Source: a virus. From it: 61,208 bases of DNA. The stretch spans positions 1 through 61,208 of IMG/VR virus record IMGVR_UViG_3300009085_000030. The stretch is one strand, 5' to 3'. Under the pieces are notes generated by a model. The model had not been told where the DNA came from and searched no databases. It was given only the letters and a program-made list of their open reading frames with translations. The position numbers and the translations under genes are program-made. Of the stretch, positions 28,501-52,707 are shown piece by piece. Each line of letters starts with the position of its first letter. Within the stretch, counting starts at the first letter, position 1.

Positions 28501-30795
28501 GGTAGTAGCGTGGTGCAGATCCTGATGTCCAACGAGGCGCACACTCTGCCTGCGGCGAACGACGGCACAGTCAGTAGCTACGTGGGCAGTGGCACGGCGA
28601 TTGGCATCTTCGAAGGCACCACACAACTGGACTACGACGGTATCGGAACTGCCGCCGGCAAGTGGACGGCCAGCCGTAGCGTCACGACCGGTACGATGAC
28701 GACGCCTGGGGCGCTGAGCGAATCGGGCGCGCTCGCCATCATGGCCGACCACGCAGGCATGACTGCAGATCTGGTGCAGGTTACGGTCACGGCTACAGGC
28801 AAGACCTTGACCGGAGCAAGCTTCTCGATCAGCAAGGTCCAATCGCTGACCAAGAGCAGGCAGGGCACAGCCGGCGTCACAGGTACGCGGACCGCTGTGC
28901 TCGAGATGTATAAGTGGGCGGCTTCGCAGCCCGTGAGCAGCTTCCCGGCAGGTACGTCCACGTACACCTGGGCCACCGGCCAGTTCACGGACCCGGCCAC
29001 GCCTAACAGTTGGACCCGCGTGCCGGGTGCCGCCGTTGCAGGGCAGACGCTGTGGGTGGTGCGGCAGGTCTACGCGGATCAGCTTACCTCGGCAACATCC
29101 GACGTCACGTGGGCGGCTACGTCCAGTGCGGCCTCCGGGGCGGCGGGCACTTCTGGCACGGACGGCCAGCGGGTCGGCTTCTTGGAAGTCTACAAGTGGG
29201 CACTCGCGCAGCCGGTGAGCAGCTTCCCGGCAGGTACGTCCACATACACGTGGGCGGACGGTTCCTTTACCGCACCGTCAACAGCGAACGGATGGGCGCT
29301 GGTTCCGGGTGCGCCGACTGCGGGGTACACTCTGTGGGCGTGTTCGGTCCGGGTGTCGAACAACAGCACAAGCGCTACTTCCAGCGCTACGTGGAACACT
29401 GCCGTCTCGTATGCGGTGGGCTTCGCAGGTTCGGATGGTGGCCCGGGCGACACCGGGCAGAGCAACCACCGGGTCTACCGCGCTGTCACAATCGGGGCCG
29501 CGAAGCTGACGCCTGCCAACACGACTAACGGGGCGACGCCGACTTCACCCGCGGTGTGGAGCGCGGTTCCGCTGACGCTCACGGCTGGGCAGGAACAATA
29601 CCAGTCTGATGGCACGACGCCAGCCGGCAGCACCACGACGACGTGGACTGTTGAATACCCGAGCTATTTGAAGGTCGGCACGCTGGAAGCTATCACGGGA
29701 AACATGGGTACGCTGACGGCGGGCTCGATCAACACGACGGGGTACCTGCGCGCGGAAGGGTCCACTGGCGTCACTGTTCCGGTCTCTGGGGCATCGGCGT
29801 CAAGAACTACTGCGGGCGCGTTCAATACTACCAACGCTCAACAGATCGGTGTGATAGCCACCAACAACAACTCTACTAACCCGGCGCTGTACGGGTGGAA
29901 CGCGTCTGTGGCATCCGGGATCGGGGTCTACGGGCAAGGCGCCATCGGGGTAGTTGGAATTGCCAATGCAGCTAATGGAGACTACGGCGCAATCTTCTAC
30001 GGCAATGGATCTCCGACATACGCGACGGTCGCTCTCTCAGCTTCGATCAACAATTCCAACGCAGGCAGTAAAGCTCTTGAAGTTTTCGGTGACACATCTG
30101 CCTCCCAGATCGCCATGGATGTCGCTGGCGCGGTAGTGTTCAAGGGGGCCAACGGTGGGAGTCTTCGACTCAAGCCTACAAACGGTGCACTGTACCGCGG
30201 AGTGATCCATTCGGTCAGTTCGACAACGTACTCGCTTGGTGTCACGGCGTCTGGGACTGCAGACGGTGCCGCAGCGACCACCCCGCTCAGCATCAATCTA
30301 TCAACGGGTGCGTTTACCTTCTCTGCTGCACCTTCGTTCCAGAGTAACTTTACGGTCGGCAGCACGACCCTCGTATCGAGCTTGAACGCTGACCTGCTCG
30401 ACGGGCAGCACGGGAGCTACTACGCTGCGGCGTCCAGCGTGCCTGCCGCCGCCAATAACGGTACGCTGACAATGGGCGTGTCTGGCGTTGGGCTGTCGGG
30501 GTCCGCATCGTTCACGGCTAACCAGAGCGGTAGCGGCACGTTCACAGTCACATCGAACGCAACCTCCGCCAATACCGCGAACGCTATCGTGTCTCGCAAT
30601 GCCAACGGGGATGTCTGGGTTCGGGACGCCAATATGGCGGGCACCATCAGCTTGAATGGTGCGACAGTTAGTTCCCTTGGCGGTGGTATTCCAACCTTCT
30701 CGACAAAGAAGCCGGGCGCGGATACCGTCAATACGTGGCTCCAGGTCTATGTCAACGGGGTCTTCTATCAAATTCCAATGTGGCCGAATAGCTAG
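22570..30795 (+). CDS. Giant J-like host-specificity / central tail fibre protein
   Basis: 2741 residues. Residues 1-60 are hydrophobic (LLATPLYAWADPATLLILAG, then GTGMALVAAGVIYGSV). Residues 75-370 match the start of J-like tip proteins (WRIVYGRATIGGSIHAM, LHNVFIDNTPAGPF). A jelly-roll carbohydrate-binding-like insert lies at about 375-525 (W-G-SNATLTQNSG, RYVRFRMRRNAGDGWVGKLYYKT, VFDIDWISVSEF). Two Fn3-like domains lie near 745-950. From about 955 to 2110, Ig-like domains alternate (ITLTAKLQNLVGAVSF, ITLTALLNNITGTATF). The C-terminus carries the fibre motif LNADLLDGQHGSYY near 2607. It probably forms the central fibre that contacts the receptor. Confidence 0.88.
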   Translation: MDNKLIKTVVGALLATPLYAWADPATLLILAGQFIATAGPVAGAYFGTGMALVAAGVIYGSVSKRRAAKKAATEAKNAYNSQLEDRGATILSAVPPWRIVYGRATIGGSIHAMFTADKVKTVNGQQVTRKDALHYLVYVFAAHEVGALHNVFIDNTPAGPFDADGYSLNSEFRSSESMMMAGQVSLDIGASWTSDKPVLSFTAIGHPTDYVPEWGQAHDVTGYITVTNGGRTLTNNSTMISTVSYQMYSVMDSSFRFIWHDGDPNQTVDGPLHSAFPDKWTTNHRIRGRAYAVVVVDLEDSRFQSGPPSITVDVTGKLVYDPRNASTTASNNVALCIRDFLLAKYGANADTTEVNDTYVAAAANACDAWISVDVPGYLDTITYTFAATVDGWVGSNATLTQNSGTPTFLRVACTAEDTVAYKEGLSFSGSTNRYVRFRMRRNAGDGWVGKLYYKTAGHGYSEDYRKDFNTGFPVGGDWVELVYDMHSLTTGAGDWKGSTITGLQFRFGIEAGDVFDIDWISVSEFAPDTELQPKYTMNGAFTTDDSRESVLENMAVAMNGYVTNGGQWLVVAGAWTAPVRDFTDDDLDGQIAIVQTDTGLDELANSSKGTYYPVGVSSPVEFPPYKNATLVTNDGEELWEDINLPYTNSETRARNVARVRVERTRSGQILTVPLKLHAWPTQVGDRIRLTSTEYGLNLKVYRVTDWGFSVTGAVVLTVQEDAEEIYDEADTTLSDPTPNTDLPNPNIVQNVENLLAASGTDHLTVASDGTITTRVFVSWDAARDAYLVAGSAYAEIKWRRVLFDPVDQWNMSRVPATSVSVYIENAVEFEFLVIGVRYVNSVGREGAWSFVEHTVIGKSEPPDAVTGLAYTNTAGGMRISWDPCIEVDYAETELRYGASWAAGVLVWVGKANEALWIPPGEGDYTIWAVHRDTTGHESTPASLAVNYDASGITSAQTMVLSADRLAFVFADENAATAITTDDITLTAKLQNLVGAVSFSAVAYNSAGTSLGAVTLTGTSDTVRVLTAANFVAPGLTVAYVEVTAEIASTNGSGTLDDTTTIYRVNHGSNSVYVILTNDSHTIPTNSDGTNGVYTGSGTDIGVFEGTNQLVWDNVGTTPGKWKVVASGGGTITPGAISAAGNNARVAQHAGMTNYTAIVTYTITGKTLTGEAFTHTKLQTLSKAIAGNSSALLTLDFSGVAFVFQGEDGNVSTTPNITLTALLNNITGTATFTTAAYDIGGGLLGTGTPLGGSGNTRTLTPAQFLTYPTTYTLKITATLDALTDTITIYRVNDGADTMQVGLSNEAHLIPSANDGTVESYSGASGSMVAAKGGLLLSNVTDPSVSFSMVGYTGFNTVYPAAQAGITINATTGFYSVTAGMTADVATVTFRATLSNGFTADRVFSLAKSKEGAAGSAAVSIDLLSESDITAANSDGTGYVLPANNQIKLYEGGVLLVAGVTYAGDITKNGLTANVNESTGIVTFTGSTPTWTSNAESFTFQATYNSITYSANYTYAKSKAGSDAVNADLLSEADVVAAAADGTGYVLPTGNEFKLYKGGTDLTSGVAYSVWNTGTATWLASTTKNGLTFAIDASTGVITLSGASWTSDSEVFTTKAVYGGLDYSKLYSIAKSKRGETGEAGGVVLTLQATAAAYVFESPDATSSTTPAITLTGLRGTLVGTMTFTTQAFNAAGTSLGTGTPLSGSGDTRTMTATQFLFYPTARYVTITATVGAYSDTFTLYRIDHGSDTITAGLSNESHIVPADPAGVVSSWVGAGGSMVVLKGVDILSSVTTPSVAFSLVGYTGFSTTYPTAQAGISVNTTTGAYSVSNNVTSDVATVTIRATLSTGLTLDRIFTVTKARQGIDGDGGVAAQLLTIGATGLAFIFADKNATLATEPENIVFTATLQNVSGTVVFAGTAYNAAGTMVGSAGGVTLTGTGNTRTLSKANFNAAGATVQYVVVTATLGSLSDTTTVYRGDHGSSVVQILMSNEAHTLPAANDGTVSSYVGSGTAIGIFEGTTQLDYDGIGTAAGKWTASRSVTTGTMTTPGALSESGALAIMADHAGMTADLVQVTVTATGKTLTGASFSISKVQSLTKSRQGTAGVTGTRTAVLEMYKWAASQPVSSFPAGTSTYTWATGQFTDPATPNSWTRVPGAAVAGQTLWVVRQVYADQLTSATSDVTWAATSSAASGAAGTSGTDGQRVGFLEVYKWALAQPVSSFPAGTSTYTWADGSFTAPSTANGWALVPGAPTAGYTLWACSVRVSNNSTSATSSATWNTAVSYAVGFAGSDGGPGDTGQSNHRVYRAVTIGAAKLTPANTTNGATPTSPAVWSAVPLTLTAGQEQYQSDGTTPAGSTTTTWTVEYPSYLKVGTLEAITGNMGTLTAGSINTTGYLRAEGSTGVTVPVSGASASRTTAGAFNTTNAQQIGVIATNNNSTNPALYGWNASVASGIGVYGQGAIGVVGIANAANGDYGAIFYGNGSPTYATVALSASINNSNAGSKALEVFGDTSASQIAMDVAGAVVFKGANGGSLRLKPTNGALYRGVIHSVSSTTYSLGVTASGTADGAAATTPLSINLSTGAFTFSAAPSFQSNFTVGSTTLVSSLNADLLDGQHGSYYAAASSVPAAANNGTLTMGVSGVGLSGSASFTANQSGSGTFTVTSNATSANTANAIVSRNANGDVWVRDANMAGTISLNGATVSSLGGGIPTFSTKKPGADTVNTWLQVYVNGVFYQIPMWPNS
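28933..29243 (+). repeat. Recent internal duplication in the tip-fibre gene
   Basis: A 29-base stretch at 28933-28961 is repeated exactly at 29215-29243, 282 bases apart. It lies in a larger duplicated unit encoding E-x-YKWA-x-QPVSSFPAGTSTYTW twice. The surrounding protein copies are similar but diverged, so the short block of full identity points to recent duplication or gene conversion. Confidence 0.85.
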
Positions 30796-35804: not shown

Positions 35805-36158
35805 CTACCCGATGATGTCTTGACATTCACGAAACTCGTCGTGCACGCGGCGGGCCACGCGCACAACGTCTGCGTCGGCCGGCAGGTGATACCCGCTCGA
35901 CCCGTTCCAGTCGGCAAACGCCGCGTCGTAGAACCCGATGCGCTTGCCGTACTTGCGGTGAAGCTGAAACAACTGCTGCGCCCACTTCGTCCACGTGGCG
36001 TCGTCGATGATGGGCGAGTCCATGTGGTAGTACAGGAACGAGTGCAGCAGCATCTGCCGGCGGCGCCGGGCAATGGCCGCGACGACGCGGGGCTCGATGG
36101 TCTTCGACCGGGGCCGGTTCGCCCATTCGGTCACGGTGTTGGGGCGGGTCTTAGCCAT
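35805..36158 (-). CDS. DNA ligase LigA-related small protein
   Basis: 117 residues. After a basic N-terminus the sequence RRRQMLLHSFLYYHMDSPIIDDATWTKWAQQLFQLHRKY matches the Y-Y-x-x-D-x-P-I-x-x-D-x-x-W/Y motif of small phage proteins. These resemble the Ia domain of NAD-dependent DNA ligase and lack the catalytic domain. Without the adenylation domain it cannot seal nicks alone. It overlaps the neighbouring gene by eight bases. Function is unproven. Confidence 0.6.
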   Translation of the reverse strand: MAKTRPNTVTEWANRPRSKTIEPRVVAAIARRRRQMLLHSFLYYHMDSPIIDDATWTKWAQQLFQLHRKYGKRIGFYDAAFADWNGSSGYHLPADADVVRVARRVHDEFRECQDIIG

Positions 36159-36360
36159 GCTGGGCTCCCTGCATTTGTTTCGCGTATTCGAAGTGCCAGT
36201 CTGGCTGCCCGTACGGGAACCAGTCTCGGTCGCAGTAGAAGCAGCGCAGCTTCGGGTCCGTAGCTTCGAAGGTGTCGCTGTCAACAGCCACGCCACCACG
36301 GCAGCACCACGGGTGCATGTGACCATCGAACTGCGTCTCGTGGCGGTGGATCTTAGCCAT
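36151..36360 (-). CDS. Small Cys/His-rich protein
   Basis: 69 residues with GGGAGC upstream of the ATG. Cysteines at HPWCCRGG and LRCFYCDRDWFPYG (C-x2-C) plus several His suggest a small zinc-binding fold. It overlaps the stop of the upstream gene by eight bases. No known family; may be a regulatory or host-takeover protein. Confidence 0.6.
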   Translation of the reverse strand: MAKIHRHETQFDGHMHPWCCRGGVAVDSDTFEATDPKLRCFYCDRDWFPYGQPDWHFEYAKQMQGAQHG

Positions 36361-39770: not shown

Positions 39771-41186
39771 TTAAGTGTGAATACGCCTGGGGCCGCGCGG
39801 GGGCGTCGGTTCGTCGGGCGGGCTATCGGGGCCAGGGTTGCCCTCGTCGGCGCCAGCGCTGGGGCCGCTGGCGGGCTTGGTGCCCCCCAAGCGGGCCGCG
39901 ATGGCAGCACCCTCGGGGGTTTGTGCCAGCGCCGCGAGCATGCCCGTCAGGCTGGTGCCGCCGGCCGGGGTAAACAGGTCGGTCAGCTTCGCCACCCCGC
40001 CCGCGACTTCCCCATTGGTCGAGATGACCTTGAGGTCGGCCTTCTCGAGTGCGACGGACATTGCCTTGCCGACACCTTCCGCCGCTTCGACTTGGCGCAG
40101 CGTGACGAGGTAGGTCTGGTACCCGGCGTTCTCGCCAATCTCCTTGGCAAGCGTGATCTGCGCGGTCACCGGCGCCATGAGCAACAACTCCTGCGCCTTA
40201 GCAGTCGCTTCGCCCGTGACCAGTGTGCCCTCGGCTTCGTTCTTGGTCTGGGCCAGCACACCCTGCGAGCGAAGCTCCACTGCCTGCCGCTCTGCCTCGG
40301 CCCGGGTAACTTCCACCTGCTTGGCAATCTCGGCGGCGCGGGTGTCCTTGACGCGCAGCACTTCCATGTCCTTCTCAGCAGTGACGGCGGCTTCGCTGGC
40401 GATCTCCTGCTTGGCCTGCTCCTTGGCGATGCCGACAGCGCGCTCCTGTGTGGCGGTGCGCTCACCGACTTGCTGAGTGGCCTGCTGCGTGCCCAGGTCG
40501 ACTTCTCGAGCCGCCTCGATCTCGGCCAGTTGCGCGGCGCGATTGTTCTCCGCGACGACGGTGCGGCTTTCCTTGTCGATACGGCTCTGGTGCTTCGCCA
40601 TGATGTTGGCGATCACGTGGGACTTGGGTGTGTCGCGCAAGTCCATGAACTCGATGGTCTTCACGGTTCGCACGCCCCACTCGGTCCGCGCTTGCAGGTC
40701 GACTTCGTTCGTGAACTGCTGGCCCAGTTCGCCGCGAATCTCCATGATCTGTTCGAGCGTGTTCATCGCCAGGATGCGCCGCACCGAGCCTTGCAGTACC
40801 GCGGTCAGTTGCTCTTCGAGTTCACTGAACGAAGACACACGCTGCGCCGCGACACCCGAGTCCTCGACCCGGAAGAACGCAACTACGTCCACAATGAACG
40901 GGAGTCGGTTCGTATCGTACGCCTCGTACCCGTTGAGCGGCACCGAGAATATGCTCTCTGGGAACTCGAAGACCACGACGCCGAAGTACGGCACCCAGGA
41001 GGGCCACGCATAGTACGTGTTCCCGGCGTCTTTGCCCTTGCCGTATGAAGTGGTCTTTCGCGTGGACTGCACGATGTGGACCATGTTGGTGGGCACCACT
41101 CGGCGGAAGATCGCGGCCAGGAGCAGCGCCCCGAACGCGACGGCGATGAGGGCAACGATGCCCCCGGTGTATATCAGGTATTCCAT
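39771..41186 (-). CDS. Flotillin-like SPFH/band-7 membrane protein
   Basis: 471 residues. Residues 1-30 form an N-terminal membrane helix (GGIVALIAVAFGALLLAAIF). Residues 30-210 are an SPFH domain (VPTNMVHIVQSTRKT, YFGVVVFEFPESIFSVPLNG, RVSSFSELEEQLTAVLQGSVRRILAMNTLEQIMEIR, EWGVRTVKTIEFMDL). A long Ala/Glu coiled coil from 215 to 345 follows, the flotillin domain. Then come helices and a Pro-rich tail. Flotillins scaffold membrane microdomains. A phage-borne full-length member is rare; it may remodel the host envelope or organise phage factories at the membrane. Function here is inferred. Confidence 0.8.
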   Translation of the reverse strand: MEYLIYTGGIVALIAVAFGALLLAAIFRRVVPTNMVHIVQSTRKTTSYGKGKDAGNTYYAWPSWVPYFGVVVFEFPESIFSVPLNGYEAYDTNRLPFIVDVVAFFRVEDSGVAAQRVSSFSELEEQLTAVLQGSVRRILAMNTLEQIMEIRGELGQQFTNEVDLQARTEWGVRTVKTIEFMDLRDTPKSHVIANIMAKHQSRIDKESRTVVAENNRAAQLAEIEAAREVDLGTQQATQQVGERTATQERAVGIAKEQAKQEIASEAAVTAEKDMEVLRVKDTRAAEIAKQVEVTRAEAERQAVELRSQGVLAQTKNEAEGTLVTGEATAKAQELLLMAPVTAQITLAKEIGENAGYQTYLVTLRQVEAAEGVGKAMSVALEKADLKVISTNGEVAGGVAKLTDLFTPAGGTSLTGMLAALAQTPEGAAIAARLGGTKPASGPSAGADEGNPGPDSPPDEPTPPRGPRRIHT

Positions 41187-42642: not shown

Positions 42643-43308
42643 TTATCGGTCCTGGTCTACGTAGGCCGGGGTGGCTTCGCTGCCATCATCGAGCGGGGCA
42701 GGGCGCGGGCACTGGTGCACGCTGCTGGGCACCACACCGTCCATGGCTTGGAAGTACGTGCCGCACACGCGGCACTTCCAAAGCACGCGCCCGTCGCCCC
42801 AGTAGCCCTCAGGCCCGAAGCGGCTATCCATGGCCGCAGCGATATGGACGGGCACGTTCGTGAGCCCTTCGGGGCGCGGGGCCGGCGCCGATTCTTCGGC
42901 GTACTGCTGCTTGAGTATAAAGTCCAGCAACCCGTACGCGTGGCGCAAGTCTGCGACGCTGGTGGCGTTGGCTGTGAACATCATGAACCGAGATTCGAGT
43001 GCCGCACCCTCGACGTCAATGTCGTTGGCATCGAAGAACCTGTTGAGCATCTCGCTGCGCGCGATCATGACCAGATGCGGCGGCTCGATGGGCGGAGGCA
43101 TGCGGTCGTGTTCAATGAGTTCGATCAGCTTCTCGAGGTAGTGTCCTGCTTTGAGAATGTCCTCGCGGCCGTTCTTCTTGCGGTGCCTCGTGACGTACTT
43201 CGTCGCGTTGGCGACGTAGTAGTTCAACTGGAGATCGGCCACAAGGTCCCAGTGCTGGTAGTCCGCTTTGTAGTGCGAGCCACCGTGTTGGATTGCGTTC
43301 ACTGTCAT
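42643..43308 (-). CDS. DUF3310 protein with zinc ribbon
   Basis: 221 residues, ATGA-coupled to the HD protein. N-terminal DUF3310 pattern: HGGSHYKADYQHWDLVADLQLNYYVANATKYVTRHRKKNGREDILKAGHYLEKLIEL. The C-terminal part contains a C-x2-C and H-x-C site (WKCRVCGTYFQ and SSVHQCPR) and could bind zinc. DUF3310 proteins are common in phages, often near nucleotide metabolism genes; they are sometimes annotated nucleotide kinase without proof. Confidence 0.8.
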   Translation of the reverse strand: MTVNAIQHGGSHYKADYQHWDLVADLQLNYYVANATKYVTRHRKKNGREDILKAGHYLEKLIELIEHDRMPPPIEPPHLVMIARSEMLNRFFDANDIDVEGAALESRFMMFTANATSVADLRHAYGLLDFILKQQYAEESAPAPRPEGLTNVPVHIAAAMDSRFGPEGYWGDGRVLWKCRVCGTYFQAMDGVVPSSVHQCPRPAPLDDGSEATPAYVDQDR

Positions 43309-43889
43309 GCGAGTATTCCCCGATAAAGTCTGTCGTAAAGAACGTGCCGCACGGCAGCCGTTACACCTTCATACAGTTCGGTGGCGGGCGTCGTGTCACC
43401 GCATACTACCGGAGCCGGCATCTCGGCCAGCCACTCCGTGATACGAATCAGGTACTCGTCGAAGAAACGGTTACCCATGGTAACCTCTTCGAGCGCGTAC
43501 AGGGCAAAGTCCATGCGGTCACACCACAGCAAGATGTGCTGTTCCTCGGCGTCGATTTCATAGCGCACGCCCATGTCATGTTCCCACTTGGTGCTGAGCT
43601 CGTTGAGCATGCGCTTCAAGTCTGGGTTGTGGCGCTTCACAGGCGCAGGTACGTCACCGGTGGCGATCTCGCTAAGGTCGTGCACCAGTGCAGCGGCCAG
43701 CAGCGCCGCTGACGGGGTGTAGCCGATCCGCTCGTATAGCGCCAGGACCAGCATCGCCACGCCATGCGAATGCTCCGCCACGTTGCGGTCCATCAACGTG
43801 CGGCAGGTATGCGAGCGCTTGACCACGCCCGCATCGCGCAGCGTCAATACCCGCTCGGTGATCGAGTTGAGCTTCGGGCGAATATTCAC
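43305..43889 (-). CDS. HD-domain phosphohydrolase (YfbR-like)
   Basis: 194 residues from a GTG overlapping the preceding stop (GTGA). HD metal-binding residues: R-x-L-M-DRNVAEHSHGVAMLVLAL (His), AAALVHDLSEIATGDVPAPVK (HD pair), and a later LLWCDRMDFALYALEE Asp. This is the 5'-deoxynucleotidase/YfbR-like layout. It is co-translated with the dUMP hydroxymethylase-like gene. I infer a role in adjusting dNMP pools, for example removing dTMP so that the modified nucleotide replaces thymidine. Confidence 0.8.
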   Translation of the reverse strand: MNIRPKLNSITERVLTLRDAGVVKRSHTCRTLMDRNVAEHSHGVAMLVLALYERIGYTPSAALLAAALVHDLSEIATGDVPAPVKRHNPDLKRMLNELSTKWEHDMGVRYEIDAEEQHILLWCDRMDFALYALEEVTMGNRFFDEYLIRITEWLAEMPAPVVCGDTTPATELYEGVTAAVRHVLYDRLYRGILA

Positions 43890-44962
43890 AGCTTCGGCCC
43901 CCCAGTCTGTGCGGCGGCGCGGCGCCGGTCGATCCACTGCTGGCCGGCGTGATGCCAATCGAACTCTGTGGGCGAGAACCACTCGACCGGGGTTTCGCGG
44001 TACGCGTGCTTGACCAGCATCGGTTTCACGATGCGCGTGAAGAACCAGGACTGGAACTTCTTGTCACAGATGGCGCTAGCAAAGTCACTGACGTCGTTGC
44101 TTCCATCAGCGATGTGGAATAGCAGTTGGAGGTCCCAGTCGAACTCTTCGATTGTGCGGGATCGCCCCGCTGGACTAAGCATGCTCGTCTGGACCATGGT
44201 GCACCCCGGCCAGAGGTCGTACGGGCACGGCGCGACGTAGACCCCGGCGCGGTGCGTCTCGATCCAGCGTTGCCAGTAGGGGTTGTCCGTGTAGACATGC
44301 AGGTTGTGGCTCATCTGGGTGTAGCGGCCGACGCCCACGCCGATACACTCCGCCATGTACTCCTGCAGGAAGCTGAACTGCACAGCGTTGGCGCCGTACG
44401 CGCCCCAGACTGCGTCGTTGCTGCGGCAGCAGACCGTGATGTCGAGCAACATGCGGCTGGAATGGAACGAACCGTCGTCGTGGCGCACGCGCAGCATCAC
44501 CATGTCATTGCACGGGATATCCAGCTTCGTCGCGCCCAGGTCGCGGTCTGTGTCCCAAAGCTGCAAGACCGCCTGCCGGCTGTACGGGTTCTTGATCAGG
44601 ATGTTGCACGCCTTCGTAATCTGGTCGCCGTGCAGGTGACGCAACCGGTACCCGTACGCGCCGTGGAAAGAATCGCCGTCGTCGCTGTAGTTGATCATCC
44701 GCGAGTTGTACCAAGCGAGAGTGCGTACGTCCCGGCGACCGGCCAGTATCCACAATGCCTCGAACAAGTGGAAGAAGGGGTTGGCGTCCCGCTCGGCGTC
44801 GAACAGCACGCGGCGGCGCGGCTCGCGGTAAGTGGTGGCGACGGGGCTAGGAGCCACCAGTGCGGGGCCGTTGCGCGTGCTTTCGAGCGTGCCGCAGTCG
44901 CGCAGGTACGCCAGCGCCCGGGGCAGCGCTTCGTTCACATCGCGCACGTTCATAGTGTGCAT
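43886..44962 (-). CDS. Thymidylate synthase homologue, probable dUMP hydroxymethylase
   Basis: 358 residues. TS fold motifs: LFEALWILAG, then LDIPCNDMVMLRVR with catalytic Cys at about 151. VCCRSNDAVWGAYGANAVQFSFLQEYMA holds the dUMP-binding R-S-x-D and Asn region, and QMSHNLHVYTDN follows. The PCN triad in place of the usual PCH, and the W-G-A-Y-G loop, resemble phage dUMP hydroxymethylases that make 5-hydroxymethyl-dUMP. Neighbouring hypermodification genes support this reading. A classical thymidylate synthase activity is not excluded. The start was chosen by GGAG ten bases upstream and the methionine pair MHTM. Confidence 0.8.
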   Translation of the reverse strand: MHTMNVRDVNEALPRALAYLRDCGTLESTRNGPALVAPSPVATTYREPRRRVLFDAERDANPFFHLFEALWILAGRRDVRTLAWYNSRMINYSDDGDSFHGAYGYRLRHLHGDQITKACNILIKNPYSRQAVLQLWDTDRDLGATKLDIPCNDMVMLRVRHDDGSFHSSRMLLDITVCCRSNDAVWGAYGANAVQFSFLQEYMAECIGVGVGRYTQMSHNLHVYTDNPYWQRWIETHRAGVYVAPCPYDLWPGCTMVQTSMLSPAGRSRTIEEFDWDLQLLFHIADGSNDVSDFASAICDKKFQSWFFTRIVKPMLVKHAYRETPVEWFSPTEFDWHHAGQQWIDRRRAAAQTGGPKL

Positions 44963-45029
44963 GGGTTCAGTACTCCATTGGTTGGGTGGGGTTTCGATTG
45001 TAGGTGTACAGCCGTTGTGGAGCAAGCGG

Positions 45030-45344
45030 CTACAGGAAAGCCGGGGTGCGGTCTATGTACTGGTCGAACGGGCCGAAGTCTGCCTTGTATAGCTTCATGA
45101 ATTGTGCGTACAAGCTGGGGTGCGTGATGATCGTACCATCGGCCATCCGGTACGCGCACGGTTGAAGCTTGGTGCCGTAACGCTTGCCCCACTTCTTGTT
45201 GATGCGACGGTGGTACTGCTGTGTCTGGTTGCGGCGCTTCTTGTGGACCTTGGCCTGCACTTGCTGGACACACAGGTCATTCTGTAATAGCTTCGTTCCT
45301 AGTAGTGCCGTCGGGCGGAGAATGTCCATGTCGCCGTACCTCAT
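45030..45344 (-). CDS. Basic unknown protein
   Basis: 104 residues, ATGA-coupled to the kinase gene. Very basic middle (VHKKRRNQTQQYHRRINKKWGKRYGTKL) and a C-terminal YRMADGTIITHPSLYAQFMKLYKAD segment. The composition suggests nucleic-acid binding. Coupling to the hypermodification kinase hints at a helper role on DNA, without direct evidence. Confidence 0.6.
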   Translation of the reverse strand: MRYGDMDILRPTALLGTKLLQNDLCVQQVQAKVHKKRRNQTQQYHRRINKKWGKRYGTKLQPCAYRMADGTIITHPSLYAQFMKLYKADFGPFDQYIDRTPAFL

Positions 45345-46021
45345 ACGCAGTAGTCCGCTGCGGTGTCTTTCACCAGTTCGAGGAACTCGTACTTGGCATC
45401 AGCGTGTCGGATGTCCACCCGCACACCGCCACGGTCGATGACGCGCTTGTAGCAGAGCTGGACTCGGTAGTAGTCGTCCCGTATGTTCTTCTCGATCTTG
45501 GCCGCTCGGTCGCCCTCGGTGTCTTGCCCCCGGGCAGCGCGGCGCTTCGTCACACGCTTGATGCACTTCTCAACCGGCGTGTCGAGGAACGCGTTCACGT
45601 ACCGCTCGCCCCAGCGCGGATGTACGTACTCACCCAGTGCGCCCCAGGAGTGTGCGAGGAGCAAGCCCTCGAAGACGACGATGCTGTTTTCCTTGCTGCC
45701 GTACCGCTCGACCAGATCGATGGTTTCCTGCACCGTGGGGATGGTGTCGCACCCGCCAGCGCTACGTTCGGGGCTGTAGTCGCCCAGGATGTACGTCGTG
45801 ACGCGGCGCATGCCGGCGTGTGCTTCGATCTCGAGCGTGCCCCGGTACACGCGGACCTTGCGGCCGCGCTCATCGAATCGGTACGGCTCGGCGTCTACCG
45901 CATCGAACAGGGCGCGCATCGCCGTGGTCTTACCGCTGCCGCTGGTGCCGCGCAACTGGACGACGGCGCTGCTCTTGATGCGTTTGCCGGGGACCGTGGT
46001 CGCGGCTACTTTACGTCCCAT
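45341..46021 (-). CDS. P-loop kinase, probable 5-hydroxymethyl-dU DNA kinase
   Basis: 226 residues. Walker A GTSGSGKTT at about 25-33; VVFEGLLLAHSWG resembles a Walker B/lid start; later VEKCIKRVTKRRAARG provides Arg-rich lid residues. The size and motifs match the phage P-loop kinases that phosphorylate or pyrophosphorylate hydroxymethyl-dU in DNA. It lies between the thymidylate synthase homologue and two genes of the thymine pyrophosphorylase class. Specificity is inferred from this context. Confidence 0.75.
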   Translation of the reverse strand: MGRKVAATTVPGKRIKSSAVVQLRGTSGSGKTTAMRALFDAVDAEPYRFDERGRKVRVYRGTLEIEAHAGMRRVTTYILGDYSPERSAGGCDTIPTVQETIDLVERYGSKENSIVVFEGLLLAHSWGALGEYVHPRWGERYVNAFLDTPVEKCIKRVTKRRAARGQDTEGDRAAKIEKNIRDDYYRVQLCYKRVIDRGGVRVDIRHADAKYEFLELVKDTAADYCV

Positions 46022-46229
46022 GCTTCTTCTCCTTTTTGCGTTTCGGGTTGGGGTTCTTGAGTATCTTGATGATATGGTCGGCGCGCATGACCCGAGTACG
46101 GGCGGCGCCGATCAGCTCTTGGATGGCTTCGCAGTTGTGGTTCTGGATCTGCTCGGGCTCCGACCATCGTAGGACGATGAAGCAGTGCGGGCAGGTCCAG
46201 TACGCGTGCGTCCCAGCGGTGCCGACCAT
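46011..46229 (-). CDS. Small zinc-finger-like protein
   Basis: 72 residues; GGAG seven bases before the ATG. W-T-C-P-H-C-F-I-V, then QNHNCEAIQEL, gives a C-x2-C and H-x-C/C set suited to bind zinc. A Lys-rich tail follows (PNPKRKKEKKHG). It overlaps the kinase start by 11 bases. It may deliver the modification enzymes to DNA; this is speculation from composition. Confidence 0.6.
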   Translation of the reverse strand: MVGTAGTHAYWTCPHCFIVLRWSEPEQIQNHNCEAIQELIGAARTRVMRADHIIKILKNPNPKRKKEKKHGT

Positions 46230-46233
46230 GGCG

Positions 46234-47103
46234 CTACTCCGTGAGCGAGTCAAGGATTTGGTTGAGCTGGGCCTCCTTGTACGGCGACAGTTCCAGCAGC
46301 GTACCGGCCATCTCCTTTGCGGTGTCGCTGGTGGCGGCGCGCAGGCGCATCACCGCCTTGGCCGTACGCGTACCGTAGATGTAGCTGCCGCTGGACATTT
46401 GCTTGTAGACGCAGCACACGGTCTCGGCTTCCTGGATGCCGAACTTGCGCGCCCGCGTCGTGCGGGGTGGGATGTTGTTCTTGCGGCCGAAGTCCGATAC
46501 ACCGTCGTAGATGTACGCGACGACTTCCTTGTCCGGCACGAAGCCTATCTCGCCATTGACGCTTCCCATCTCGTATATCAAATGTGCGCCTTGCTGCGGC
46601 AGCTTGGGGCTGTGCTTCTCGCTACCAGTCATGTCGACGGCGCCGAACCCGAGGACTTCGTGCAGGTCGCACCACTTCCAGTAGAAGTAATCACCATACT
46701 GGACCACCTGCTTGCCTTGACGGCGGATGTCGAAGTACGTATGCCCGTCGCACATGAAATCGGCCAGCGCCTCCGGCTTCGGCCAGACGCTGCGCCATTG
46801 AGCCAATGCCTTCAGCCCCTGCTGGCCGCGGAAGTGCCTGCGCTCGGTGGCACGCTTCGCCGTCGGGTAGATTTTCTCGAGGTAGTCCCAGAAGCGCTTG
46901 CCCTGGTACTGACTGGCGTCAGCAGCGATGCCGAGATTGTAGTAGGAACACCACGCCACCGCAGCGCGGAGCCGCTGCGACCAGTCCAGCCCAGTATGCT
47001 GGAGTGCATAGTAGCCGGGGTCTGCATCCCACTCCTTGTAGATGCGCTCGGTGAACGTCGTCCAGTGGTCGAGTTCTTGCAGTGAGGGTTTTCTGTACGC
47101 CAC
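46234..47103 (-). CDS. Probable amino acid:DNA transferase (thymine pyrophosphorylase clade 2)
   Basis: 289 residues from a GTG with TAGGAGA seven bases upstream. Conserved-looking helical segments: WDADPGYYALQHTGLDWSQRLRAAVAWCSYYNLGIAA, RFWDYLEKIYPTAKRATERRHFRG (the E-R-R-H-F-R-G motif near 87-93), then YGDYFYWKWCDLHEVLGFGAVD. These resemble the amino acid:DNA transferase group (alpha-glutamyl/putrescinyl thymine pyrophosphorylase clade 2). That group displaces pyrophosphate from modified hydroxymethyl-dU and installs an amino acid. The assignment is from memory of motifs plus cluster context. Confidence 0.65.
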   Translation of the reverse strand: MAYRKPSLQELDHWTTFTERIYKEWDADPGYYALQHTGLDWSQRLRAAVAWCSYYNLGIAADASQYQGKRFWDYLEKIYPTAKRATERRHFRGQQGLKALAQWRSVWPKPEALADFMCDGHTYFDIRRQGKQVVQYGDYFYWKWCDLHEVLGFGAVDMTGSEKHSPKLPQQGAHLIYEMGSVNGEIGFVPDKEVVAYIYDGVSDFGRKNNIPPRTTRARKFGIQEAETVCCVYKQMSSGSYIYGTRTAKAVMRLRAATSDTAKEMAGTLLELSPYKEAQLNQILDSLTE

Positions 47104-47105
47104 GG

Positions 47106-47276
47106 TTATCTCCTAAAGAATAGGTACTTCAAGGTGACCTGTGTGAACATGCCTGAGACAACCCCTGCACAGAAGTGTTCCCAGATCGTACCTTCGTCTA
47201 CAGCCATTGAGCGCAGCACTACATACCCTGGGATAGACAGAGCTATGAGCACTATCGAGCCTACGAGGTATTTCAC
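47106..47276 (-). CDS. 56-residue membrane protein
   Basis: GTG start with AAAGGAGAATC upstream. MKYLVGSIVLIALSIPGYVVL is a membrane segment; a short soluble part (RSMAVDEGTIWEHFCAG) and a second hydrophobic stretch (VVSGMFTQVTLKYLFF) follow, ending RR. It lies two bases before the next start. Its excellent ribosome site argues that it is real. Function unknown; it could be a membrane-active early protein. Confidence 0.65.
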   Translation of the reverse strand: MKYLVGSIVLIALSIPGYVVLRSMAVDEGTIWEHFCAGVVSGMFTQVTLKYLFFRR

Positions 47277-47321
47277 GATTCTCCTTTCGTTGTTGGGTAC
47301 AGCTATTGTACCGACCGCGTA

Positions 47322-48266
47322 CTATGAACGACTAGCCTTCGGGGGATAGCTGTTCTTGGCGTGACCGCCATTCTTCACGCGGATGTACTTGCCCAGTTCG
47401 CACAGCGTGTTCTGAATGTCGTGCGCTTCCAGGCCCAGAGCGCGGAATACCTTGCCGACCTCTGGGTGCTTGCGTGCGATGAAGATCAGCGTCGGAAGGA
47501 ACTGGAGGAATTGCCGCTCGGTCAGGTCGCTGCCGCGCCCAGCCATGTCATTTGGCGACGACAGGCCCAGCAGGTACTTCATGCCCCGGCTCGAACCCGG
47601 GCCGGGGGGCGCCCAGACCATGCGGTCGAGCCAGCAGTCATCATCGTCGGGGCGGAACACCCAACGCAGGTCCGCCACTACCTGCCCAGCCATGAAGCCG
47701 CCGATGCCGGGCAACGCATGCAGATGCTTGGCTGTCTTCTGCATGCTGCTGCTATCAAGATAGTGGAACGGTCTGGTCCGAACGCACTTGTCAATGGCTT
47801 TGAGTACTTGCTCGATCTTCGGCCCGCCCGAGGCGCCGTTGATGATGTACGCATTGGTGAAGACCGGCGTGCCAGACTCCTTGACTTCGTACATGCGCTT
47901 CAGCACGCGTTCGTATTTCCAACCGCTGAACGGGTTACCGCCGGTAATGTGTGCCAGCGTCTCGGTTCGGTTGATCATGCGCGCCATCAACGCCGCGGCC
48001 ATCAACTGCGGCGCTGGCATCTCGTGTGCTATCGCCGGGTCCGGGTACCAGTTCTTCATCAGCCAGATGCTGACCTTGTCATCCATGCGCCGCACGTTGC
48101 ACCAGCGGGTGCCGGCCAGGATTGGGTCTGGGCTAAACACCGTCCGAGTGGGGTCCTTGTTCGCGGCCTTACGCTTACGCATGGCTTCGCGCTCGATAAT
48201 CCAGTACGCCCATTCAGCGATGCGCTCGGGGACGAAGGGGCCGGCGGTTCCGGGCGTGTCAGACAT
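47322..48266 (-). CDS. Thymine pyrophosphorylase-like hypermodification enzyme (HhH fold)
   Basis: 314 residues. Residues 45-70 (FSPDPILAGTRWCNVRRMDDKVSIWLMKN) carry the D-P-I-L and R-x-C/T-N-V-x-R motif of alpha-glutamyl/putrescinyl thymine pyrophosphorylases, followed by ARMINRTETLAHI and VFTNAYIINGA. Near 195-215, LHALPGIGGFMAGQVVADL is a helix-hairpin-helix like that of DNA glycosylases, the fold assigned to this family. The enzyme is expected to replace a pyrophosphate on hydroxymethyl-dU in DNA with an amine. It overlaps the helicase gene by eight bases. Confidence 0.8.
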   Translation of the reverse strand: MSDTPGTAGPFVPERIAEWAYWIIEREAMRKRKAANKDPTRTVFSPDPILAGTRWCNVRRMDDKVSIWLMKNWYPDPAIAHEMPAPQLMAAALMARMINRTETLAHITGGNPFSGWKYERVLKRMYEVKESGTPVFTNAYIINGASGGPKIEQVLKAIDKCVRTRPFHYLDSSSMQKTAKHLHALPGIGGFMAGQVVADLRWVFRPDDDDCWLDRMVWAPPGPGSSRGMKYLLGLSSPNDMAGRGSDLTERQFLQFLPTLIFIARKHPEVGKVFRALGLEAHDIQNTLCELGKYIRVKNGGHAKNSYPPKASRS

Positions 48267-49671
48267 GGTTGCTCCTCTTAGTGCGTTGGTCGTAATACCG
48301 CTTGAACAGGTTGCTGATGCGCTGCTGTCGCGCACCGTGGCCTTCCAAGGCTTCGAGCACCACTTCGTCCACAGTGTCGCGGGCGAGGATGATGTAGTTG
48401 TAGACCTTCTTGCTCTGGCCGCTGCGGCGCAGCCGGCCGATGGTCTGGTCGTAGAACAGCCTCGAGAACGTGGCGCCGAACCACGCCAGCATGTGTCCAC
48501 CCTTTTGCAGGTTGAGCCCATACTTGGAATTTGCCGGGTGCAGGACCAGCCCGGGTATCTTGCCGCGGTTCCACTGCTCGACTAGGGTCTCGATGTGCTT
48601 CTTGTCGAACTCCTTGAACTTCGGGAACGCGGCCAGCAGGCGCGGTATGTCGTGGCGGAACTGGTACGGCACCAGGATGGGCGCACCGTAGGTCTCGGCC
48701 ACGATCTCGCGCAGGGCGTCCAGCTTGGCATCGTGCACTGGGCGCCATGACCGGGCGCCTGTCTCGATGTTTGTTGTGAAGATCGCGCCGTTGGCGATCT
48801 GGCGGCACTTGATCGACAGGCTGGCGGCGGTCTCGGCTACTGCTTCTTCGTCGCCGTCGAGCGCGAAGTTCTCGAACTGTAGAAACATCTCCTCTTCCAT
48901 GCGGTTGTACAGTTCGCGGGCCTGCGGCGGCAGGTCCACCCATATCGGCACCGTGACCAGCTTGGGCACTTCTATCCAATCTTCGGCGGCGAGCCGCACC
49001 ACGCGAGGGGACATGGCTCCGGCGATGACTTCTTCAGACCCGTCCTTGGGCTCGAACTTCTTGCCCATGTATCCAGTCTTGTAGAAGTGGTTTGCGCGAA
49101 AGTCGGTGAACTGCTGACCCAGGCTCGCGCCGAAGTCCGCCAAGTACATCTGCGGCCAGACCTGCAACATGCTGCGGGGCGTCGGCGTGCCGGTCATTAC
49201 GTACCGACGCTTGAAGTGGCGCAAGCCTTTGCGCAGGGCGCGGAACCGCACGGCCCGTTGATCGGTGAACTCGGTCGACTCGTCCACCAGCAGCATGGTC
49301 CACGGCCAGGGCTTGCGGCCCAGCACCCCGGCCATCCACTTGAGGCCCTCGGGGTTGATCATGTGGATGTGGGCGGGCGCACGCAGCGCGGCCATCCGTT
49401 CGGCGGGCTTGCCGTGCACCAGCGAGAACTTCAGCTTGCGCGTGTGTTCCCACTCGCGGGCCTCTTGCCGCCACACTGCCTGGATGACGCGGATGGGCGC
49501 GACCAGCAGCACCGAGTCGATCTCGCCAGAGACAAGCATGTCGAGTATCGCAGTCAGCGCGATGATCGTTTTGCCCAACCCCATGTCGATGAAGAGCGCG
49601 CCATAGCGCCGCTTCTTCATGAAGCCGACTGCGCGGCGCTGATACCCGCGCAGTTCGAGCCTAGTCCGCAT
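48259..49671 (-). CDS. SNF2-family DNA helicase/translocase
   Basis: 470 residues from the ATG at 49671; the longer frame upstream overlaps another gene. Helicase motifs: Q-motif region RGYQRRAVGFM, Walker A DMGLGKT at 29-35, VAPIRVIQAVWRQE (Ia), VDEST (motif II), VMTGTPTPRS (III), LHPANSKYGLNLQKGG (V), and QTIGRLRRSGQSKKV (VI). This is the compact phage SNF2 type, used in replication, recombination or repair. It ends with an overlap to the hypermodification enzyme. Confidence 0.9.
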   Translation of the reverse strand: MRTRLELRGYQRRAVGFMKKRRYGALFIDMGLGKTIIALTAILDMLVSGEIDSVLLVAPIRVIQAVWRQEAREWEHTRKLKFSLVHGKPAERMAALRAPAHIHMINPEGLKWMAGVLGRKPWPWTMLLVDESTEFTDQRAVRFRALRKGLRHFKRRYVMTGTPTPRSMLQVWPQMYLADFGASLGQQFTDFRANHFYKTGYMGKKFEPKDGSEEVIAGAMSPRVVRLAAEDWIEVPKLVTVPIWVDLPPQARELYNRMEEEMFLQFENFALDGDEEAVAETAASLSIKCRQIANGAIFTTNIETGARSWRPVHDAKLDALREIVAETYGAPILVPYQFRHDIPRLLAAFPKFKEFDKKHIETLVEQWNRGKIPGLVLHPANSKYGLNLQKGGHMLAWFGATFSRLFYDQTIGRLRRSGQSKKVYNYIILARDTVDEVVLEALEGHGARQQRISNLFKRYYDQRTKRSNHV

Positions 49672-49918
49672 GGAGATGCTTCCTCGCGGCTTCGTAGTAC
49701 GCCTCCATGGAGTCCTCGGCGTCCATGCCGGGCAGCAGGTTACTCTCGGGCACTTCGACAAACTGCTTGAGCGCCAGCGTAGTCATGACTATGCCGAGGC
49801 AGTAAATCTTCTTGGCGTACTGGGGGTGCTGGGCGTCAATGCAAAACTGCTTCATGGCCGCGTCGAAGTCGGCGGCTATTTGTTCTTCGCCGGCGCGAAG
49901 AGCTTTGTTCGTGGGCAT
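49661..49918 (-). CDS. Small unknown early protein
   Basis: 85 residues from the ATG at 49918. A GTG at 49951 lies inside the palindrome and would add 11 residues, but has no ribosome site. Helical with two cysteines (EEQIAADFDAAMKQFCIDAQHPQYAKKIYCLGIVMTTLAL). It overlaps the helicase gene by 11 bases. A promoter and a palindromic site stand upstream. No known family. Confidence 0.55.
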   Translation of the reverse strand: MPTNKALRAGEEQIAADFDAAMKQFCIDAQHPQYAKKIYCLGIVMTTLALKQFVEVPESNLLPGMDAEDSMEAYYEAARKHLHAD

Positions 49919-50706: not shown

Positions 50707-52692
50707 TTACTTGCGGTACCTGGGGCCTTCCCAGCCTTCCGCGTTAACTGGGCAGTCTGTCGCCCACTTCGGTTTCTTACGCAGTATCTCTTCGAGTTCG
50801 TGCGCGCTACCGAAGTCTTCCGGCACCAGCGCAATCAACTCGTCGTGCACGGTGCCAACGATCTCGTACCCCTTGGCTTCGGCGTTGAAGCACGCGTTCA
50901 CCATCAAGTCGCGAGCGATAGCCTGCACGATATTCTCTACTAGCTTGCCACCATAAGTCCCTTCCCTAACCCACTTGCCCTTGATCTCGCTACGGAAGGT
51001 CAGCTTGTTGACCATCTTCCGGTAGCGCAGCACCTTCTGGACCTCGGGGTACGGGTACCGCAACAGGCGCCCGCTGGGCAGCTTGATGCAGAGCCATATC
51101 CCGTCGACAAAGAATGCCAGTTGTTGCCAGTATACAGGCTTGGTAATAGACGCGCTAGTGGACACCGCACGAATGGCGCTTTCCTCTACACCGGCCCACA
51201 TCTTCACGACCATGGGGTTCTCGTCGCGGTAGGTTCCGATACCGGCCTTGGCCTCTTCTTCAGTAACGACGATGCCGCGCTTCAAGCAGTTCGTGATGAA
51301 GCCTGCCCACCCAAGTTGGAAGCCGCTGCCCAGCCAGATGTCCTTGGCGAACTTGCGCTGTGGAGTAGATACTTCGTCTTCACTCTTCAGGTGGTACAGG
51401 CGCACCGCGAGACGCTTGTACATATCGGCGTTCTCATGGTACGCCTTGATGGCCCACATCTCGCGGGCCAGCCACACGACAACGCGAGCTTCAATGGCCG
51501 CGAAGTCCACCACGACAAACTTCATGCCGGGCGGGGCCTTGATGTACCCGCGCATGCCTTGCGCCAGAGCGTCGATGGGCCACTCATGGACGATCTCGAT
51601 GGCGTCCGGGTCGCACAACATCAACAGGTCGAACAGCGCGTACAGCTGATCCGGTGTGTACTCACCACGCGTGAAGTTCTGCGGCTGTATGAGCCGGCCC
51701 GCCAGCCGGCCGGTGCTGGCCCCCCAGTAGAGGAAGGCGCCGCGCACCCGCCCGTCGATGCAGACGACCTGGAGTATCTTCTTCAGCTTCTTGGTCGAAG
51801 CCTTGCCCCCTTCGATGCGGAGCAGCAGCAGTTCCTTGGTCTTGGGGTCGAGCTCATGGCCGCGCAACGCTACAAGGTCCTTGATGGTCTTGGACTGCGT
51901 GTTCTCCATCTCGAGGCCGAGCGAGTTGAAGAACTCCAGCATCTTGTCGCGTTGCGTCGGCCGAATGCCGCCGGTAATCTGCTCGACCTTGGCGACGACA
52001 CGCTTCTCGAGGACTTGCAGCACCTGGAAACCTGCCCGGACTGCGTCCATGTCGATGGGCAGGCCGCGCTGGTTCATCTTCTCGGTGTGACGGTAGACGC
52101 GCCACTCGTAGTCCGACAGGTCGGGCAGCACGGCATCTGCTTCGGCTTCAGTGTCTACGTCGGTGCCGCAGTAGTTGACGAAGCTGGCGAACTCCTCGGG
52201 CTTGTCGTCGGGGTAGATGCGCGTGGCGGGTATGTTCTTGGTGGGCTTGCGCGGCTTGCAGAAAATGTTGATGAGCCGGGTGCCCTCCTTGTCTTTGGTA
52301 ATGCGCAGCCGCAGCGCGGGGCCGAGGTTCGCCAGCGCCCGGGGCATGCCAGCGGCGGCGGCTTTGGCCGCAGTGCAGCGCCAGCGGCGGGGCGCTACCT
52401 GGGGGGCGCCGTGGCGGGCGACCAGTACGTTCTGCCAGATGCACGCCTCGAACTGCGCATTGTGGGCGGTGAGCGTGCCCTCTGTTTCCTCGATGTACTG
52501 GCGCAGGTCTTCGGGCAGTTCGGGGCCGTCACGGTGGGGCAGCCATGTCCGGTTGGTTTTCTTGCCCGGCATGCGGTACTTCATGATCAGCACTTCGCAT
52601 GACGGGTGTTCGCTGTACCGGTGCGCGCCGACTTGGCGGACATCCAGTTCGCAGTACGTTTCAAAGTCTAGATGCAGGGTTCGGTCCGACAC
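50707..52692 (-). CDS. Family A DNA polymerase with 3'-5' exonuclease domain
   Basis: 661 residues from the GTG at 52692 (GGAGCG upstream; a TTG four codons earlier is less likely). Exonuclease I motif LHLDFETYCE, then LTAHNAQFEACIW; later FVNYCGTDVDTE holds the Exo III Asp. Polymerase motif A is VVDFAAIEAR near residue 394, differing from the common D-Y-S-Q-I-E-L-R. Motif B is RKFAKDIWLGSGFQLG, and motif C GTVHDELIA near 614. It is the main replicative polymerase of this phage and should accept hydroxymethyl-dUTP if the modification pathway works as inferred. Confidence 0.92.
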   Translation of the reverse strand: MSDRTLHLDFETYCELDVRQVGAHRYSEHPSCEVLIMKYRMPGKKTNRTWLPHRDGPELPEDLRQYIEETEGTLTAHNAQFEACIWQNVLVARHGAPQVAPRRWRCTAAKAAAAGMPRALANLGPALRLRITKDKEGTRLINIFCKPRKPTKNIPATRIYPDDKPEEFASFVNYCGTDVDTEAEADAVLPDLSDYEWRVYRHTEKMNQRGLPIDMDAVRAGFQVLQVLEKRVVAKVEQITGGIRPTQRDKMLEFFNSLGLEMENTQSKTIKDLVALRGHELDPKTKELLLLRIEGGKASTKKLKKILQVVCIDGRVRGAFLYWGASTGRLAGRLIQPQNFTRGEYTPDQLYALFDLLMLCDPDAIEIVHEWPIDALAQGMRGYIKAPPGMKFVVVDFAAIEARVVVWLAREMWAIKAYHENADMYKRLAVRLYHLKSEDEVSTPQRKFAKDIWLGSGFQLGWAGFITNCLKRGIVVTEEEAKAGIGTYRDENPMVVKMWAGVEESAIRAVSTSASITKPVYWQQLAFFVDGIWLCIKLPSGRLLRYPYPEVQKVLRYRKMVNKLTFRSEIKGKWVREGTYGGKLVENIVQAIARDLMVNACFNAEAKGYEIVGTVHDELIALVPEDFGSAHELEEILRKKPKWATDCPVNAEGWEGPRYRK

Positions 52693-52707
52693 GCAGCGCT
52701 CCAATTG

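Follow-up and report, generated by a model that had tools for sequence, protein, structure and literature searches.

A putative thymidine hypermodification pathway free of known sculpting enzymes in the IMG/VR virus record IMGVR_UViG_3300009085_000030

The 61,208-nucleotide stretch of viral DNA analyzed here (IMG/VR record IMGVR_UViG_3300009085_000030, positions 1 to 61,208; the whole stretch is hereafter called the window) carries on its minus strand, at 43305-48266, a block of genes that an earlier, sequence-only reading had interpreted as a thymine hypermodification cluster. The block has exactly these boundaries, since 43305 is the end of the stop codon of its HD gene and 48266 is the start of its hel gene, and sequence comparisons support the interpretation. 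We favor, with moderate confidence, the view that the cluster encodes a sculpting-free thymidine hypermodification pathway, in which the end product is the adduct formed by an amino acid:DNA transferase homologue (ADDT), and the final base may be one that has not yet been described.

In phages M6 and PaMx11, the sculpted thymidine bases depend on additional enzymes that act once the transfer is complete. A lineage that ends at the transfer would provide a very simple system for placing amine handles on DNA, composed of a thymidylate synthase (TS) homologue, a kinase and the transferase. Three points are new: the ADDT of the window falls into a 27-row clade with that of phage P26218, and the clade is free of known sculpting enzymes in the records searched; ADDT positions beside the invariant motifs are switched with respect to the tailored group; and the window hel groups with the hels of nine records in which no full-length kinase or ADDT is seen, while a TET-associated glycosyltransferase (TAGT) is present in five of the nine.

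Identification of the core enzymes

Profiles of the core proteins were built from the phages M6, PaMx11, Pam3, RHph_I65 and CN1 (four phages, without RHph_I65, for HD), with neither the window nor its clade among the sources, and were run against the stop-to-stop frames of the window of at least 50 amino acids (aa), with matches reported at E <= 1. Each of the five profiles matches exactly one frame at this threshold, with E-values of 3.3e-89 for TS, 2.5e-31 for hel, 2.7e-24 for HD, 3.6e-23 for ADDT and 5.9e-23 for the kinase. Pfam puts four of the five proteins over its cut-offs, the kinase being the exception. The kinase and the two proteins grouped with it in the sequence-only reading match the families guessed there and not unrelated ones.

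The TS homologue (43886-44962, 358 aa) matches PF00303 at 3.9e-16, and the PCN active site from which it had been recognized is invariant in 12/12 aligned homologues. Asn or Asp at the base-selecting residue tells dUMP from dCMP enzymes; it is Asn in all 12 aligned enzymes, in the window protein as in the TS of B. subtilis, and Asp in the CMP hydroxymethylase MilA (5b6d/5jnh). The window enzyme is predicted to be of the dUMP type, i.e. a dUMP 5-hydroxymethylase. The HD protein (43305-43889, 194 aa, GTG start at 43889) is a YfbR-like nucleotidase according to Pfam (PF12917, 4.8e-20), and its coupling to TS takes the form of a GTGA overlap.

The P-loop protein (45341-46021, 226 aa) qualifies as a homologue of the 5-hydroxymethyl-deoxyuridine (5-hmdU) DNA kinase by the phage-specific profile, despite a Pfam score below the cut-off, in agreement with its earlier description as a P-loop kinase. 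The records of its homologues M6 gp54, PaMx11 gp49 and P26218 gp15 give them the annotation 'terminase small subunit'; PHROG phrog_800, which the window kinase itself matches, bears the same name.

The transferase: fold, phylogeny and switched positions

The ADDT gene (46234-47103, 289 aa, GTG start) encodes the E-R-R-H-F-R-G motif, at residues 87-93, for which the protein had been singled out as transferase-like, and matches PF18724 with 58.4 bits (1.1e-15; cut-off 26.2). Its sequence also finds two solved structures, 8z2m (PaMx11 gp46, 4.7e-9) and 25qc (an M6-like transferase, 3.8e-8). The AlphaFold2 model, calculated from 36 window and IMG/VR sequences (predicted local distance difference test, pLDDT, 95.3), matches 8z2n, whose PDB title reads 5-phosphomethyl-2'-deoxyuridine (5-PmdU) glycinyltransferase gp46/PUGT, with a Foldseek E-value of 2.3e-11 and a TM-score of 0.80, and in a superposition of 261 residues with Z of 30.9 and a root mean square deviation of 2.0 A. 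From this fold match, and with the chemistry taken from the PaMx11 glycinyltransferase, we infer that it is the E-R-R-H-F-R-G protein that transfers the amine.

Relatives of the transferase were collected by an alignment search of viral contigs, in which the window ADDT as a single-sequence query finds none. The best 80 of 172 were kept, and the sample therefore leans towards the window. The maximum-likelihood tree comprises 89 ADDTs and is rooted at the midpoint; it omits L041 (short), L042 and L007 (same contigs as L008 and L015), L001 (the window itself), and L005 and L006, which have no ADDT. The window pairs with L015 (100/99) inside a clade of 27 rows (100/99) that holds P26218 and Podoviridae ctfPj964 (MW202557). 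A 100/97 branch divides this clade together with phiW-14, SH-Ab 15599 and L046 (the first side) from the 59 other rows (the tailored side).

Twelve residues of ADDT (D26, D28, P29, Y31, Y55, R84, R88, R89, K143, D146, E227 and C231) are identical in 27/27 rows of the window clade and in all of the 59 tailored-side rows that have a letter there. Other positions, compared between the same two sets, are switched. The window clade has, in 27/27 rows each, V232, R246, Y139, W51, F140, D138, Q235 and W142, versus (in PaMx11 numbering) K248 (59/59), D262 (58/58 rows with a letter), W146 (59/59), Y47 (59/59), I147 (55 of 59), P145 (54 of 59), S251 (53 of 59) and F149 (53 of 59), respectively, on the tailored side. 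Because several of these positions adjoin the invariant C231, K234, G137 and K143, an altered amine site in the window clade is plausible. All 27 rows have lost the lysine that is uniform in the tailored, glycine-type group and carry an arginine in place of an aspartate, which leads us to suggest, tentatively, that the transferases of the window and P26218 represent a lineage with a changed amine, which would put a non-glycine metabolite on phosphomethyl-dU and keep the untrimmed adduct as an undescribed base.

The alternative that survives best, formally a sub-case of our explanation, is that ADDT is a plain glycinyltransferase and that the base is N-alpha-glycinyl-thymidine, a known intermediate that is here left unsculpted. 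The fold and the invariant residues shared with the PaMx11 glycinyltransferase speak for it. However, the fixed changes beside the invariant motifs, in particular those of K248 to V232, W146 to Y139 and D262 to R246, speak mildly against plain glycine as the amine, and we regard this possibility as somewhat unlikely.

Distribution of tailoring enzymes

The sequence-only reading had seen no pyridoxal phosphate (PLP), radical S-adenosylmethionine (SAM) or acetyl-transfer enzyme, and our searches of the window agree. Phage-specific profiles run over its six frames give no radical SAM, PLP or flavin adenine dinucleotide (FAD) match, a 10-row acetyltransferase profile gives none in frames of at least 50 aa, and Pfam scans of 50 window open reading frames (ORFs), a set without the 2741-aa ORF and several others, yield no family of these four kinds.

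Known tailoring genes (PLP, radical SAM, FAD or acetyltransferase) are present in 0/30 first-side loci (29 stretches with lengths of 4-38 kb, plus the window), versus 47 of the 59 rows on the tailored side. Over whole records, the radical SAM, PLP and FAD profiles find nothing in 28 records (25 from the window clade, phiW-14, SH-Ab 15599 and L046), four of which, P26218, MW202557, phiW-14 and SH-Ab 15599, are complete genomes by title. The acetyltransferase profile likewise finds nothing in the 29 first-side loci, which were searched as loci and not as whole records; L032 and L035, whose ADDTs are identical to those of L031 and L034, are included in this search and lie outside the 28-record ones. 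Four control records behaved as expected, with radical SAM and PLP genes found in M6, Pam3 and L067 and the FAD gene in PaMx11. When the ADDTs are collapsed at 60% identity, 7 clusters stand against 45 (37 with tailoring), and the Fisher p of 4.8e-5 is a descriptive figure because the clusters are still related. The first reading had allowed for a simple base as well as for one that genes beyond the window would tailor; the 0/28 records with PLP, radical SAM or FAD genes favor the former.

The layout of the loci points in the same direction. Since ADDT and kinase abut or overlap, there is little space for an inserted enzyme: their ORFs overlap by 4 nt in 12/27 first-side loci and lie within 240 nt in 24/27, and only in L015, L046 and L023 are they more than 1 kb apart or rearranged. 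The coding-strand families of more than 150 aa that occur in at least 15 of the 29 clade loci are the kinase, TS, HD, ADDT, DUF3310, SNF2 helicase, polymerase and single-stranded DNA-binding protein, and they include no further enzyme. RHph_I65, once considered as an untailored phage, was dropped because the radical SAM profile finds a match among its hypothetical proteins. In bacterial genomes, 76 pattern matches contained 2 relatives, both on contigs of one Anaerolinea metagenome-assembled genome; in addition to an M6-like hel, these carry genes of the PLP and radical SAM kinds.

Several observations weigh against a pathway without steps beyond the transfer. The genome in the window seems to be incomplete and most of the relatives are contig fragments, so that a tailoring gene could sit outside. 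Known tailoring genes are also missing from 12 of the 59 tailored-side rows, and the four families thus leave some possible tailoring enzymes uncovered. The contrast between the two sides reflects few evolutionary events and not 89 independent ones. The union of the window clade with phiW-14 hinges on the midpoint root, and without a root the 100/97 branch only groups the other 59 rows. W142 is not exclusive to the window clade, as Trp is found in 6/59 tailored-side rows. L005 and L006, which carry the closest relatives of the window hel, have no ADDT on their short contigs. Lastly, the window kinase scores 18.2 bits against PF18748 (HMUDK_HMUD1), under the 27-bit cut-off, compared to 65.1 bits for M6 gp54.

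The first two of these points speak for further tailoring of the adduct into a sculpted base as in M6 or PaMx11, whether through genes beyond the window or through enzymes from families not known so far. Nonetheless, PLP, radical SAM and FAD homologues are missing from the complete genomes of P26218, MW202557, phiW-14 and SH-Ab 15599, and the widespread families of the clade loci offer no extra enzyme; we therefore consider further tailoring rather improbable.

The hel protein

The protein initially described as pyrophosphorylase-like with a helix-hairpin-helix (HhH) belongs to the family expected for it, HMUDK_hel (PF18723, 113.4 bits, 1.6e-32; cut-off 25). It is encoded at 47322-48266 (314 aa) and is aGPT-Pplase1-like, "pyrophosphorylase" being a predicted name. 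Its model (pLDDT 91.5) finds no Foldseek match below 1e-3, the best rows being HhH DNA glycosylases (E 0.13, probability 0.90), and the VIA comparison gives Z of at most 9.2, which the tool calls common, with DUF2419 queuosine salvage enzymes, glycosylases and 8z2m. These matches are suggestive of an HhH-glycosylase-like, base-handling fold.

A hel gene occurs in 8 of the 28 records searched and was not found in the other 20, including complete P26218 and MW202557, in both of which a broader profile also finds none. In the hel tree the window groups with L005, L006 and L007 (100/99), then with L105-L106 (100/99), and these rows belong to a 13-row set (100/99) composed of the window, L005, L006, L007 and all nine of L105-L113. 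A larger 21-row set (100/99), apart from the hels of M6 and PaMx11, takes in these 13 rows, the window and the TAGT-type hels among them, along with phiW-14 on a long branch, L046, L023, L036, L037 and further rows. The idea that the window hel has an origin wholly unlike those of other untailored phages had to be softened, since all of them share this 21-row set, on different branches.

The IMG/VR contigs L105-L113 show a full-length match to kinase or ADDT in 0/9 records; a 30-residue match (1e-4, G028) and a 73-position match (4.2e-4, G027) were taken as background, M6 having a like P-loop match at 1.6e-4. A TS homologue is present in the stretch covered in eight of the nine, and the TAGT (PF20691) in five, which points to glycosylated hmdU in these hel-bearing records. 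Passages of a pelagiphage survey describe TS paired with aG/PT-PPlase1, hel-type by name, with a glucosyltransferase alongside in some phages (PMC9599517). Within the window ADDT clade, the hel gene lies before ADDT (window, L015), in the interval between kinase and TS (L036, L037) or after DUF3310 (L023). We considered hel as an obligate kinase subunit, as its Pfam name implies, and came to disfavor this role, given its absence from 20/28 records and its presence without full-length kinase or ADDT in 9/9 of L105-L113. Because of its varied positions and its occurrence without kinase and ADDT, hel seems to be a movable factor of hmdU-DNA. That some records have hel but neither kinase nor ADDT, and others have both of these but no hel, calls into question what the Pfam name suggests.

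It is tempting to ask whether hel serves a second chemistry in the window, with a phage that glycosylates hmdU or makes a two-part modification. The 13-row set, with its five TAGT-bearing records, fits this idea; however, PF20691 has no match in the window, L015, L005 or L006, and the window, L005, L006 and L007, the four remaining rows of that set, carry the kinase, which makes it a very unlikely explanation. Least probable of all is a decayed cluster, or a TS that only makes dTMP, with ordinary DNA as the result, for although the kinase is divergent and under the Pfam cut-off, the frames are intact and tightly coupled and keep the family-invariant residues.

The contig segment L005:1-7207 is close to the window cluster (helicase 76%, hel 66% and kinase 69% identical) and has no ADDT between hel and the CxxC protein described below, as if the ADDT gene were a movable cassette. 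In L007:2211-5135, the translation of a 974-aa DNA polymerase ORF shows, on inspection by eye, what looks like an intein insertion.

Proposed pathway

Passages of a 2019 publication give a common route in which hmdU in DNA is phosphorylated by a 5-hmdU DNA kinase and an alkylamine is then transferred (PMC6449724). For the window, we propose that the TS homologue would make 5-hydroxymethyl-dUMP from dUMP, while the HD nucleotidase, to judge by its family, would lower the competing nucleotide pool. Other kinases would convert the product to the triphosphate, and the phage polymerase would then insert hmdU into DNA. The P-loop enzyme, as suggested by its homology to the 5-hmdU kinase of M6, would phosphorylate hmdU in DNA to 5-phosphomethyl-dU, and ADDT would swap the phosphate for the amine of a small metabolite, in analogy to the PaMx11 enzyme. 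Glycine, which would yield N-alpha-glycinyl-thymidine, and putrescine, the amine of phiW-14, are the leading candidates for this metabolite, though it could also be a different one. No further step is postulated, because no known sculpting enzyme was found in the lineage, and the adduct would be the final base. As for hel, it is probably not a fixed subunit of the kinase but a protein that flips or otherwise handles hmdU on behalf of the transferase at hand.

Genomic context

In the order of transcription, the block comprises hel, a 56-aa ORF, ADDT, a 72-aa CxxC protein, the kinase, a 104-aa ORF, TS and HD. The 56-aa ORF (47106-47276, GTG start) has, in its translation, a hydrophobic stretch recognizable by eye. 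The 72-aa protein (46011-46229), with a C-x2-C and a later H-x-C that look zinc-ribbon-like by eye, has a 38% identical homologue in viral contig L005. The 104-aa protein (45030-45344) is coupled to the kinase by ATGA; scans of family libraries gave no match for it or for the 72-aa protein. Four junctions overlap: TS/HD (GTGA), kinase/104-aa ORF (ATGA), HD/DUF3310 (ATGA) and helicase/hel (8 nt).

The operon partners are on the same strand. Downstream of the block is the DUF3310 gene (42643-43308; PF11753, 2.1e-7), whose homologues recur in 27 of the 29 loci of the clade that were compared. Upstream are an SNF2-type helicase (48259-49761; PF00176, 1.2e-17), found in 25/29 and preceding ADDT or kinase in the locus maps, and then a phrog_93-type endonuclease and a family A DNA polymerase (50707-52704; PF00476, 2.4e-16; 19/29).

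The window is probably an incomplete genome; a terminase large subunit was recognized neither in the window ORFs scanned nor via PF03237 in six frames, in which other terminase families were not sought. Elsewhere, the minus strand encodes at 35805-36326 a 173-aa protein that matches NAD+ DNA ligases in their N-terminal Ia domain alone (PF22745, 4.3e-26; phrog_6466), the ligase core being absent from the ORF, and at 39771-41186, in a minus-strand block, a 471-aa Band 7/SPFH-domain protein (PF01145, 1.2e-9), while the plus strand has at 22570-30795 a single open frame of 2741 aa.

Comparison with known systems

The base of Pseudomonas phage M6 is 5-aminoethyl-dU (5-NedU). Like the window, M6 has TS, the kinase gp54, the hel gp55, the ADDT gp51 and HD. 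Unlike the window, it adds the PALP-family PLP enzyme gp52 and the radical SAM protein gp53 (22.2 bits, below the Pfam cut-off). In both M6 and CN1 this pair, annotated as 'threonine dehydratase' and 'DNA repair photolyase', lies between ADDT and kinase, and it has no match in the possibly incomplete window. The M6 ADDT, 23% identical to that of the window, belongs to the tailored group, and its hel lies outside the 21-row set. The gp46 of PaMx11, also a Pseudomonas phage, shares the ADDT fold and the invariant residues with the window, whereas its positions beside the motifs differ, and PaMx11 has an FAD oxidoreductase and an acetyltransferase between ADDT and kinase, again without a match in the window, with the same reservation about completeness.

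Delftia phage phiW-14 provides the precedent for an untrimmed adduct as the end product, since its base, according to passages of PMC5977210, is 5-(4-aminobutylaminomethyl)uracil, the putrescine adduct alpha-putrescinylthymine. The gene content of the window is of the phiW-14 type, i.e. ADDT, hel and kinase without known tailoring enzymes; the complete genome of phiW-14 has homologues of these three and no PLP, radical SAM or FAD match. The phiW-14 ADDT shares W14, Y139, F140 and W142 with the window ADDT, but differs from the window clade in having Gly at 232 and Asp at 246, and is 29% identical to the window protein. Also unlike in the window, its kinase, hel and ADDT genes are tens of kb apart in 157 kb. 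Salmonella phage ViI was dropped as a guide to the substrate, as it has hel and kinase homologues but no ADDT of the window's family.

Also among the closest known systems are those of P26218, a cultured phage of Rhodoferax, and of MW202557. Their ADDTs belong to the window clade, with approximately 44% identity, and both share the order polymerase, small nuclease-type gene, helicase, ADDT, kinase, TS, HD and DUF3310-like gene, and, like the window, have no PLP, radical SAM or FAD enzyme. In contrast to the window, hel was found in neither of these complete genomes, which belong to podoviruses and measure 36-39 kb. Passages of the genome paper on P26218 mention a thymidylate synthase and name no modified base (PMC4657236), and we found no paper in the open literature searched that joins P26218 to the thymidine hypermodification pathway. 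With P26218 in culture, direct tests can be made of which substrate this transferase lineage uses and of which gene underlies alpha-putrescinylthymine and other untrimmed adducts.

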